From contig CAMYJO010000011.1 of assembly GCA_947258755.1 (NCBI GenBank), forward strand, positions 91,122 to 155,121: a stretch of 64,000 bases of DNA, in the 5' to 3' direction. Source of the DNA: an uncultured Gammaproteobacteria bacterium (GTDB lineage Bacteria > Pseudomonadota > Gammaproteobacteria > JAADHQ01). The position numbers and the translations under genes were made by a program. The notes under the pieces are model-generated. The model made no database searches and had not been told where the DNA came from. It was given only the letters and a program-made list of their open reading frames with translations. Positions 36,388-39,608 of the stretch are shown here, one piece after another (the first letter of the stretch is position 1; each line of letters opens with the position of its first letter).

Positions 36388-36926
36388 AATCCACGCCTTT
36401 ATCAGTTTTATAGCTGAATTTGTATATCTTTTCTATGGAAGGGGATTAATAAGATACGACTATGAATTCATGAGTATAAAAAAGATAGCTTGATGATCAG
36501 GGGGTAAATACTCGTGCTACTCAATATGGATGTCATTACAGTCGGTTGTTTTCTCTTCCGTTCGTGTTAATAAACTAGTCATTGCAGGTCGCTGCGATGC
36601 GCATGCTCATCTATTTTATATGTTCAAGCGAATATATCACTGTCTATTTCTAATTCCAATAGGGCGTTAACCGATGCCCAGTCAGCTGTGGGCAGGTATG
36701 ATAAATGCTGTCATCGAATGAAATAGCAGCATTGAGATGATAGGTGAGCGCATTAGCGTGTTGTTAAAGCCAATGGCTAATGCGGATTTTGCAGCCTGGG
36801 CACTGAAATAGAGCCTGGAAATTTGTGATTTCACGTCAAACCAGCGCCTGTGCACTCTTCAGTGGCCAAAAAGGTAGATTTTTACTTGCATCCTGACGTC
36901 TGATTCCGTATCTTACACAGCTCTTC
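36388..36926. other. Intergenic region between ugd and tRNA-Val
   Basis: This stretch of about 540 bases has no credible gene. It holds the tRNA-Val promoter at its right end and a nine-base inverted repeat, CGCATTAGC (36749-36757) against GCTAATGCG (36776-36784), with an 18-base loop and no T run. The ugd promoter must lie near its left end, but I cannot place it. Nothing else stands out. Confidence 0.6.
36886..36914 (+). promoter_or_regulatory. Promoter of tRNA-Val
   Basis: TTGCAT (36886-36891) and TATCTT (36909-36914) are separated by exactly 17 bases. The -10 box ends 12 bases before the mature tRNA, leaving a short leader for RNase P. It may also drive thrS by read-through. Confidence 0.55.
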
Positions 36927-37000
36927 AGGCGCGTAGCTCAGCTGGTTAGAGCACCACCTTGACATGGTGGGGGTCGGTGGTTCGAGTCCACTCGTGCCTA
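36927..37000 (+). tRNA. tRNA-Val (GAC)
   Basis: This 74-base cloverleaf has acceptor AGGCGCG paired with CGTGCCT (one G-T pair), discriminator A, and anticodon GAC at 36961-36963 in the loop TTGACAT. The T arm has GGTTCGAGTCC. CCA is not encoded. A tRNA-Val just upstream of thrS is also found in pseudomonads. Confidence 0.97.
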
Positions 37001-37028
37001 GCGATCTACCTTCGTGGATCGCCGTTTT
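37001..37028 (+). terminator. Hairpin after tRNA-Val, likely terminator
   Basis: A nine-base-pair stem starts on the base after the tRNA: GCGATCTAC (37001-37009) pairs with GTGGATCGC (37014-37022) around a CTTC loop, followed by a short TTTT at 37025-37028. The T run is short, so read-through into thrS is plausible. It could also only protect the tRNA 3' end. Confidence 0.5.
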
Positions 37029-37035
37029 AATTCCG

Positions 37036-37091
37036 GGGCAGTCTTGCGTATGGACTGTCCTAATAAGCAAGCGGCCTTGCGTACAGGTCGC
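37036..37091 (+). promoter_or_regulatory. thrS translational operator: twin anticodon-arm mimics
   Basis: Two hairpins lie in tandem upstream of thrS. Hairpin 1 has stem GGGCAGTCT (37036-37044) with GGACTGTCC (37052-37060). Hairpin 2 has stem GCGGCCT (37071-37077) with AGGTCGC (37085-37091). Each closes a seven-base loop, TGCGTAT and TGCGTAC, with CGT at loop positions 3-5, exactly where a threonine tRNA carries its CGU anticodon. The ribosome site AGGGG (37101-37105) follows ten bases after hairpin 2. In E. coli, threonyl-tRNA synthetase binds two such arms on its own mRNA and blocks initiation. The same control is inferred here. Confidence 0.75.
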
Positions 37092-37113
37092 CACTGAGAC
37101 AGGGGTTTAGATT

Positions 37114-39042
37114 ATGCCAGTCATTACACTGCCGGATGGCAGCCAACGTACTTTTGCCAATCCAGTTAGTATCGAAGAAATCGCCGCCGACATCGGCCCC
37201 GGTCTGGCCAAGGCCGCATTGGCCGGTAAGATCGATGACCATCTTTATGATACTTCCCATGTCGTCGACCAGGATACCAGTCTGTCAATCATTACCGAAC
37301 GCGATGACGAAGGCCTGGATGTTATTAGGCATTCCACTGCGCATTTGCTGGCTCAAGCGGTCAAGGAGCTGTTTCCAAAGGCCCAGGTCACGATCGGCCC
37401 GGTGATTGAGGATGGTTTCTATTATGATTTTTCCTATGAGGAATCATTTAGCCCGGAAGATCTGGAGGCCATTGAAAAAAAGATGCTGGAATTGACCCGG
37501 CAAAATATTAAGGTCGAACGCAGCGTGATGCCACGGGAACAGGCCATTGAATTTTTCCGTGACATGGGCGAGGAATACAAGGCGGAAATCATCGAAGGCA
37601 TTCCACATGGCCAGGAGCTATCCCTGTATCGCCAGGGAGACTTTATCGACCTGTGTCGTGGCCCGCATGTACCCAGTACCGGTAAGATCAAGGCCTTTAA
37701 GCTGATGAAAATCGCCGGTGCTTACTGGCGGGGTAACTCAGATAATGAAATGCTGCAACGCATCTATGGCACCGCCTGGACCGATAAGAAGGCGCTGAAG
37801 GCCTATTTGAAACGGCTGGAAGAAGCCGAAAAGCGCGATCACCGTCGTCTCGGTAAGCGCATGAACCTGTTCCACACTCAGGAAGAGGCACCGGGCATGG
37901 TGTTCTGGCATCAGCGTGGTTGGGAAATTTACCTGGCAGTACAGGCCTATGTTCGCGATAAGCTCAGGGATCATGATTATCAAGAGATCCATACCCCGCA
38001 GATTGTCGATCGCACGCTTTGGGAGAAATCCGGTCACTGGGAAAAATTCAGTGAGATGATGTTTACCACGCATTCCGAAAATCGCGATTATGCGGTCAAG
38101 CCGATGAACTGTCCCTGTCATGTACAGGTTTTCAACCAGGGCTTGAAAAGTTACCGTGATTTACCTTTACGCATGGCGGAGTTCGGCTCCTGTCACCGTA
38201 ATGAGCCCTCGGGTACGCTGCATGGCCTGATGCGGGTGCGTAATTTTACCCAGGATGATGCGCATATCTTCTGTACCGAAGAACAGATTCAGAGCGAAGT
38301 CGATAAATTCATCGAGCTGGTCTATGAGGTCTACCGTGATTTCGGCTTCGAGGATGTCGCCGTGGCCTTGTCAACCAGACCGGAACAGCGGGTTGGCAGT
38401 GACGAACTATGGACCAAGGCGGAGCACGCCCTGGAGCTGGCCCTGAATAACAAGGGGCTGGACTGGAAATTGCAACCAGGCGAGGGTGCCTTTTATGGTC
38501 CCAAGATCGAGTTTGTGCTGCGTGACTGCCTCGGCCGGGAATGGCAATGTGGCACGATGCAGGTCGATTTCTCGATGCCGGGCCGGCTCGATGCCCAATA
38601 CGTGGCCGAGGGTGGGGATCGGCGCACACCGGTGATGCTGCATCGGGCCATACTCGGCTCACTGGAGCGTTTTATCGGCGTCCTGATCGAGCATTATGAG
38701 GGGAATTTGCCGCTGTGGCTGGCCCCGGTGCAGGCTGTGATCATGAATATTACCGATAAACAGCATGATGCCGTGCAAAATACGCATGAATTCCTGAAAA
38801 ATAAAGGAATTAGGGCCATTTCGGACTTGAGAAATGAGAAAATAGGCTTTAAAATCCGCGAACATACAATAGAACGCATTCCGTACATGTTGGTCATAGG
38901 TGATCGCGAGGCGGAAGTGGGTAACGTTGCCGTGCGCACGCGGAGTGGTGAGGACCTGGGCATTATGTCCCTGGAGGCAGTTGCCGATTTCCTCAATACC
39001 GAGATTGCGAGCCGCGGCTTAACTATTTTAGAGGACGAGTAA
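37114..39042 (+). CDS. thrS: Threonyl-tRNA synthetase
   Basis: This 642-residue class II synthetase has an N-terminal TGS domain (1-62, [14 protein letters not shown]), an editing domain with [11 protein letters not shown], and a catalytic core with motif 2 ([20 protein letters not shown]), zinc ligands including MNCPCHV, motif 3 and a C-terminal anticodon-binding domain. Length equals E. coli ThrRS. The ATG at 37114 has AGGGG eight bases upstream. The anticodon-binding domain is the part that recognises the operator in E. coli. infC starts just after the stop. Confidence 0.98.
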
Positions 39043-39044
39043 AA

Positions 39045-39608
39045 ATCGCAGCAAAAAACAAAGTACGTATAAACGATTTGATCACCTATCCGGAAGTCAG
39101 GCTGATAGGAGCAGATGGTGAACAGGTCGGTGTGGTACCCACCTCGGAAGCAAAACAAATTGCGAGTGATGCGAGTCTGGACCTGGTAGAGGTTTCGCCG
39201 AATGCGGAACCACCCGTCTGTCGCATTATGGATTATGGGAAATTCCGCTTTGAGCAGAAAAAAAGTACCCAGTCTGCACGTAAGAAACAAAAGCAGATAC
39301 AGATTAAGGAAATAAAGTTTCGTCCAGGGACGGATGTTGGAGACTATAAGGTAAAGCTACGCAACCTTATTCGTTTCCTCAGTGATGGCGACAAGGCCAA
39401 GGTAACCATAAGGTACCGCGGTCGTGAAATGGCCCATCAGGAACTCGGCATGCAACTGCTGGACAGGATTGAGATTGACCTCGCTGAATATGGCGTCGTC
39501 GAACAACGTCCGAAGATGGAAGGTAGGCAATTAGTTATGGTCTTTGGTCCAAAGGCCCCGACTAAAAAAGGCATTACCCAGAAATCGAAACCAGCGGCCG
39601 ACACCTGA
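39045..39608 (+). CDS. infC: Translation initiation factor IF-3, non-canonical ATC start
   Basis: The protein of about 187 residues has the family opening [22 protein letters not shown] and C-domain blocks such as [12 protein letters not shown] and [12 protein letters not shown]. The first ATG/GTG/TTG-type codon, TTG at 39078, falls inside the conserved N-terminal segment, so it cannot be the start. The codon at 39045 is ATC, two bases after the thrS stop, with GAGGA at 39031-39035. IF-3 genes typically start with AUU, which lets IF-3 repress its own synthesis; ATC would serve the same purpose. rpmI and rplT follow as usual. Confidence 0.93.

Follow-up and report, generated by a model that had tools for sequence, protein, structure and literature searches.

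The closest described system is the thrS operator of Escherichia coli (domains 1-4), in which threonyl-tRNA synthetase (ThrRS) represses its own translation through two anticodon-like hairpins, keeps the 30S subunit away in a manner that needs its N-terminal region, and is competed for by tRNA-Thr (passages of PMC11088916, PMC7373986, PMC9976931, and PMC3858243). An earlier note on the locus studied here had named the binding of two such arms by E. coli ThrRS, and reviews indeed state this (passages of PMC11088916, PMC7373986, and PMC9976931). A split ribosome site is also described for E. coli (in a part of PMC3858243), and both E. coli stem-loops are said to contain CGU (in a part of PMC7373986), a statement that we could not match to the E. 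coli leader used here (L085), in which CGT occurs only at -33 and -168 within the 200 bases before thrS. Yeast AspRS likewise recognizes a tRNA mimic, an anticodon-like arm in the leader of the mRNA that encodes it (in a part of PMC7373986), although RNA and enzyme are both unrelated to those considered here.

We analyzed a 64,000-nt stretch of DNA from an uncultured gammaproteobacterium (hereafter the window), in which two hairpins with tRNA-Thr-like loops precede thrS. Judging from the sequence, these very probably constitute a ThrRS operator, through which the enzyme is predicted to block translation of the mRNA that encodes it. A tRNA-Val gene, a terminator-like hairpin, the two arms, AGGGG, and the thrS start are packed into 200 bases, as follows:

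36927..37000, + strand: tRNA-Val (GAC) gene, directly upstream (ARAGORN; Rfam RF00005, 64.8 bits)
37001..37022, + strand: terminator-like hairpin after tRNA-Val, nine pairs and then CGTTTTAATT, also present in the RNA fold
37035..37061, + strand: putative distal anticodon-arm mimic, loop TGCGTAT with CGT at loop positions 3-5, no collar (fold, shuffles, genus)
37062..37070, + strand: inter-arm linker AATAAGCAA, 9 nt, its final CAA being the 5' side of the proximal collar
37068..37096, + strand: proximal element, consisting of CAA, a 7-bp stem, loop TGCGTAC, and CACTG (model R2, collar counts)
37071..37091, + strand: putative proximal anticodon-arm mimic proper, 7-bp stem and 7-base loop (sequence, fold)
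37101..37105, + strand: Shine-Dalgarno (SD)-like AGGGG, ten bases past the proximal arm (sequence)
37114..39042, + strand: thrS, threonyl-tRNA synthetase, 642 aa, full length with N-terminal domains

This layout shares with the E. coli operator the gene, the position, an SD directly downstream, and a full-length ThrRS, as well as a proximal arm homologous to domain 2; a second arm upstream is the candidate counterpart of domain 4. In contrast to E. coli, both arms of the window are plain, with seven-base loops sharing TGCGTA; a scan of the E. coli leader gave a single arm of this kind at operator distance, and its second strict match is 111 nt further upstream with loop GAGGTTA. The window further differs from E. 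coli in having G33 for U33, in being packed behind tRNA-Val, in a distal arm with an uninterrupted 10-bp stem and no collar of near-invariant flanking bases, and in its 9-nt linker, which leaves little room for the upstream half of an E. coli-type split ribosome site.

A re-check of the sequence bore out the coordinates and loops given in the earlier note for the twin hairpins before thrS. At 37036-37060 the distal arm shows the claimed nine pairs, extended to ten if G-U at 37035/37061 is counted, around loop TGCGTAT. Seven pairs, again as claimed, and loop TGCGTAC make up the proximal arm (37071-37091), and AGGGG follows, as described, ten bases downstream of the proximal arm. CGT occupies the place of the threonine tRNA anticodon in both loops, so that the proposed likeness to tRNA-Thr holds at the anticodon, but both loops carry G where the tRNA has U33 and hence are not full copies of the tRNA-Thr loop. 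This G33 may weaken the tRNA-like turn. Two tRNA-Thr genes were found in the genome (GGU and UGU, with loops ending GTAA), and a DNA search of the genome with tRNA-Thr(UGU) found no further tRNA-Thr gene; the genome-wide tRNA search gave 34 matches, 30 of them typed, and the tRNA list is incomplete, since no His or Trp tRNA is among the typed ones, which leaves no ground for calling tRNA-Thr(CGU) absent. Residues 1-640 of the window's ThrRS align to residues 1-641 of E. coli ThrRS 1qf6 (910.8 bits), and eight of ten E. coli C-terminal positions compared are identical, among them N575, E600, and R609, which we take to be anticodon-contact residues.

RNA folding of 37001-37130 gives both arms (MFE -45.3, z -2.38); the stretch 37032-37113 by itself shows no unusual stability (z -1.03), with 30 of 200 shuffles equally good. 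On the forward strand of the window, no hairpins other than the two arms have both a ..CGT.. seven-base loop and seven or more pairs; one further such hairpin lies on the reverse strand. If these were chance hairpins, single ones would come as no surprise, single-strand dinucleotide shuffles yielding a mean of 1.2 per 64 kb, but two of them 25-45 bases apart occurred in none of 200 dinucleotide shuffles. The pair is not explained by base composition, and with its conservation in the genus and the class refuting a chance origin, we give that explanation virtually no weight.

In Bacillus, thrS is a T-box target, and the leader in the window likewise precedes an aminoacyl-tRNA synthetase gene, as would be expected of a T-box or another tRNA-sensing leader whose hairpins bind tRNA instead of mimicking it. 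However, no Rfam family except tRNA matched in the window at gathering score, a search of 37001-37200 at E up to 5 returned only two chance-level matches, neither of them a T-box, and the loop carries an anticodon-like NGU. T-box and other Rfam families were rejected on this search, and a tRNA-sensing leader is exceedingly improbable.

The proximal arm could be followed across Gammaproteobacteria. Leaders drawn through the ThrRS protein came from the best 80 of 586 confirmed ThrRS-encoding stretches and from 29 relatives' loci (the relatives search matched 53 of 56 genomes, the window's own counted, and loci were given for 29 of the other 52); E. coli and the window bring the total to 111 leaders, 109 of them unique. 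Model R1 was built from 51 unique proximal arms picked for stem pairing and GT, and model R2 from 34 rows with this genus and E. coli left out. R2 scored the window at 37.0 bits (37069-37098), its three congeners at 32.8-36.9 bits, and E. coli domain 2 at 33.6 bits (L085:1944-1973), the next-best match reaching 10.6 bits in the 83,549 bases searched. These scores show the proximal arm of the window to be homologous to domain 2 of the E. coli thrS operator.

R1 matched 87 of 232 genomes (E 0.01) and, in a class search, 120 of 368 (E 1e-4), two overlapping draws, with one of the 120 (G356) a chance match. A ThrRS ORF starts directly behind the arm at 115 of the 117 model-drawn loci examined, the exceptions being L251 and L257. 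Covariation in class alignment A1 does not count as evidence, since pairing and GT were the grounds on which its rows had been selected. Among the 109 unique leaders not drawn by model (the window, E. coli, and 107 drawn through the ThrRS protein), a stem-plus-flank rule finds the arm in 56 and does not find it in 53. Among 18 named loci, those of Pseudomonas, Marinobacter, Marinomonas, Marinobacterium, Halioglobus, a Solemya symbiont, and others carry the arm, and the rule finds none in three Legionella loci or in single loci of Methylophaga, Methylococcaceae, Nitrosomonas, and Azoarcus. Seven Methylophaga-type leaders (L002, L003, L005, L009, L049, L059, and L094, the last identical to L002) carry GGCCCTTTGTATSGGYCRCAACC, a diverged arm with a TGT loop and an altered collar that the rule misses. 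In a phylum search, 48 of 299 genomes matched and every match listed belongs to the same class (loci examined: L143 and L262-L265, beside genomes already covered above), although this is no clean outgroup control, 231 of the genomes being unlisted.

R1 matches away from thrS were considered as further ThrRS targets, and none stood up among those examined. L257 (G356, 27.4 bits) lies inside an infB-like coding sequence, and the match in G015 (25.3 bits) is on a contig other than that of its thrS. In L251 (G309, 34.4 bits), some 40 bases of that genome's thrS leader recur as a stray copy, not followed by any ThrRS match. The copy lies at about 994-1035 of G309:C18, on another contig than thrS, and may be either a relic or a decoy that is transcribed. 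Nine further matches, outside the examined set, are weak (19.7-22.7 bits).

In a total of 222 leaders (213 unique), 159 have a proximal arm by stem and CACTG with the loop left unconstrained. G35 and U36 are present in all 159, of which 103 were drawn by a model favoring GU; the same GU occupies loop positions 35-36 in 56 of 56 arms that were not model-drawn (the window, E. coli, and 54 protein-drawn). Position 34 varies, with C (92 arms), G (46), A (13), and U (8) all represented. The invariant CGU loop anticipated in the earlier note is thus upheld for its GU, conserved class-wide in the proximal arm, and not for its C. This invariant GU agrees with the tRNA-Thr identity bases, which include G and U (in a part of PMC7373986). 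Position 33 is U and position 37 is A in 143 of 159 arms each. Of the 16 proximal loops that lack U33, 15, the window's included, have C34 (Fisher p 0.002, uncorrected for relatedness).

The collar round the proximal stem, CA(H) and CACTG at 37068-37070 and 37092-37096 of the window and in homologues, is near-invariant, with A at -2 in 159/159, C at -3 in 144/159, and CACTG after the stem in 143/159. It would form a 2-bp lower stem around a 1x3 internal loop, and the fold of the E. coli leader shows the same arrangement with a longer lower stem; covariation cannot test this pairing because the collar is nearly invariant. An extension of the lower stem past the collar is left out of the element, positions -4/+6 pairing in 83 of 159 arms, only a little above shuffles (mean 67.5, maximum 84). 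Arm and ATG are 12-28 nt apart in 156 of the 159 leaders (22 nt in the window, with AGGGG in between), and an SD-like tetramer stands between arm and ATG in 145 of 159 by a loose rule without control.

The distal hairpin of the window is best read, on its sequence, as a second, plainer arm. We weighed this reading against one that confines ThrRS binding to the proximal, domain-2-like arm and takes the distal hairpin for an unrelated structure behind tRNA-Val, for instance another terminator, a stabilizing hairpin, or an RNase site. Such an unrelated hairpin would fit the missing collar of the window's distal arm and the terminator-like hairpin just upstream of it, but no T-run follows the distal arm (CTAATAAGC), and the four available genomes of the genus (the window, L086, L087, and L088) also count against this alternative. 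Both arms are kept in all four, with loops carrying CGTA or CGTG and changing stems, and the distal CGTA persists throughout despite stem change: the distal stem is GGGCAGTCT/GGACTGTCC with loop TGCGTAT in the window, GAACAGTCT/GGATTGTTC with TGCGTAT in L086, GAACAGTCT/TGATTGTTC with CGCGTAT in L087, and GGACAATCT/GGATTGTCC with GGCGTAG in L088. The comparison with related genomes proposed in the earlier note therefore came out in its favor, with both arms kept, stems varying, and the proximal arm conserved class-wide. Its observation that the two arms carry the same loop extends only partway, TGCGTA being shared between arms in the window and L086 while the loops differ within L087 and L088. 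Over both arms of the four sequences, 63 of 64 cells pair, against 28-48% in slid controls, and two pairs changed on both sides. The covariation score was, however, reached by 29 of 500 shuffles and the count of both-side changes by 204 of 500, so that with only four sequences the genus covariation is weak on its own.

Evidence from other lineages bears on the distal hairpin from both sides. Upstream of the 159 proximal arms, we counted hairpins with a perfect six-pair stem and a seven-base loop and classed them by the dinucleotide at loop positions 4-5. GT was the commonest (18 of 83), followed by AC (10). At 28-40 nt from the proximal arm, GT occurs in 12 of 21 such hairpins, where 6.3% would be expected from the local GT frequency (binomial p 7e-10), and still in 8 of 17 with this genus excluded (p 3.7e-6), although these p-values overstate independence because several of the 12 come from one genus (L170, L215, and L237 being one other genus). 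This enrichment at the same spacing in other lineages, and the full collared second arm in L215 and L237, count against an unrelated distal hairpin. On the other side, most of the 159 leaders have no clean second arm at that spacing; strict GT distal arms occur in only 12, two of them doubtful (L007, where a T-run follows, and L172). In sum of these points we consider it unlikely that the proximal arm is the only ThrRS site.

Taking the distal hairpin as a second arm, the ten remaining twin leaders have a pitch of 33-38 nt, with stems of 6-14 pairs and linkers of 4-17 nt that vary inversely. More broadly, tandem leaders with two or three NGU-loop arms at a pitch of 31-38 nt were found in L215 (G357), L237 (G269), L170 (G234), L021, L139 (G058), and L097 (G039). 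In L215, L237, and L021, CACTGA is found on the second arm too, which points to duplication, and the two L215 arms are identical; the origin of the distal arm in the window's genus, with its different stem and no collar, is not visible. L170, of the same genus as L215 and L237, has a long-stemmed second arm without collar, and L146, from another genus of L215's family, has a single arm. With arm types differing and a single arm occurring within one family, arms appear to have been gained or lost. Three arms are present in L139 (at -117, -81, and -45, with looser stems), L097, and L087. The order of G058 is represented by one genome and that of G039 by three, and R1 found no match in the other two genomes of the latter.

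Two further hairpins lie upstream of known arms. In L087, a hairpin with loop TACGTAA replaces the tRNA-Val terminator at about -117 to -97 from the thrS ATG, 36 nt upstream of that leader's own distal arm, and is a third arm in register, perhaps merged with the terminator. In three Pseudomonas leaders (L068, L079, and L080) and in L157, which has a like leader, a CTGCC-NNNGTRN-GGCRG hairpin precedes the proximal arm by about 58 nt. These hairpins keep GT in a varying loop (ACTGTGA, ATAGTAA, ACCGTGC) and are perhaps domain 4 of those leaders.

All sequence parts of the E. coli system are present in the window, namely a domain 2 homologue, a second arm, an SD ten bases behind, and a full-length ThrRS, from which we infer the same control. 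Each subunit of a free ThrRS dimer would hold one of the two arms by its anticodon-binding domain, and the N-terminal domains of the enzyme would keep the 30S subunit off AGGGG. tRNA-Thr would compete for the enzyme and lift repression, so that ThrRS output would follow tRNA-Thr supply. By bridging the dimer, the distal arm would make binding tighter; that one dimer holds both arms is suggested by the pitch, which is near-constant, and by the example of E. coli.

Alternatively, ThrRS binding might alter mRNA stability or transcription past the tRNA-Val terminator and not ribosome access. Because tRNA-Val and its terminator-like hairpin immediately precede thrS, and a search for a sigma-70-like promoter in 36700-37200 gave no match, read-through or processing could be regulated, and the hairpin at the terminator's place in L087 has the arm-like loop TACGTAA. 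However, the narrow arm-to-start distance noted above is kept though upstream contexts differ widely, and E. coli ThrRS acts on 30S binding (in a part of PMC11088916). We thus hold an effect on stability or transcription to be quite unlikely, and prefer repression of translation.

This kind of control is already known from E. coli. What is new is its class-wide extent, the varying number of arms at a near-constant pitch, G33 for U33, and the lack of an Rfam family, the E. coli thrS leader stretch itself giving no Rfam match even at E up to 5. Searches of open-access papers, judged by title and start of abstract, turned up no description of a class-wide element or of tandem arms. A textbook case of E. 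coli translational control thus appears to be a widespread class-level RNA element. Its natural variants, with any base at position 34, invariant GU, one, two, or three arms, and G33, form a ready mutational series that makes it testable whether the strength of autoregulation depends on arm number and spacing and whether both ThrRS dimer subunits are needed. More tentatively, and with somewhat less than even confidence in the whole, the thrS operators of Gammaproteobacteria may be modular arrays in which a single collared domain-2 arm is joined by at most two more anticodon-arm mimics at a near-fixed pitch of about 31-38 nt, the terminator-replacing arm of L087 included. If so, arms would have been gained and lost repeatedly, arm number would tune capture of the ThrRS dimer, and the third arm of L087 would let ThrRS act on tRNA-Val read-through as well as on translation.

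Downstream of thrS, the infC frame is open from ATC at 39045, immediately past the thrS stop, with no ATG or GTG ahead of TTG at 39078. E. coli infC starts at AUU, and the infC start in the window is likely a rare codon.
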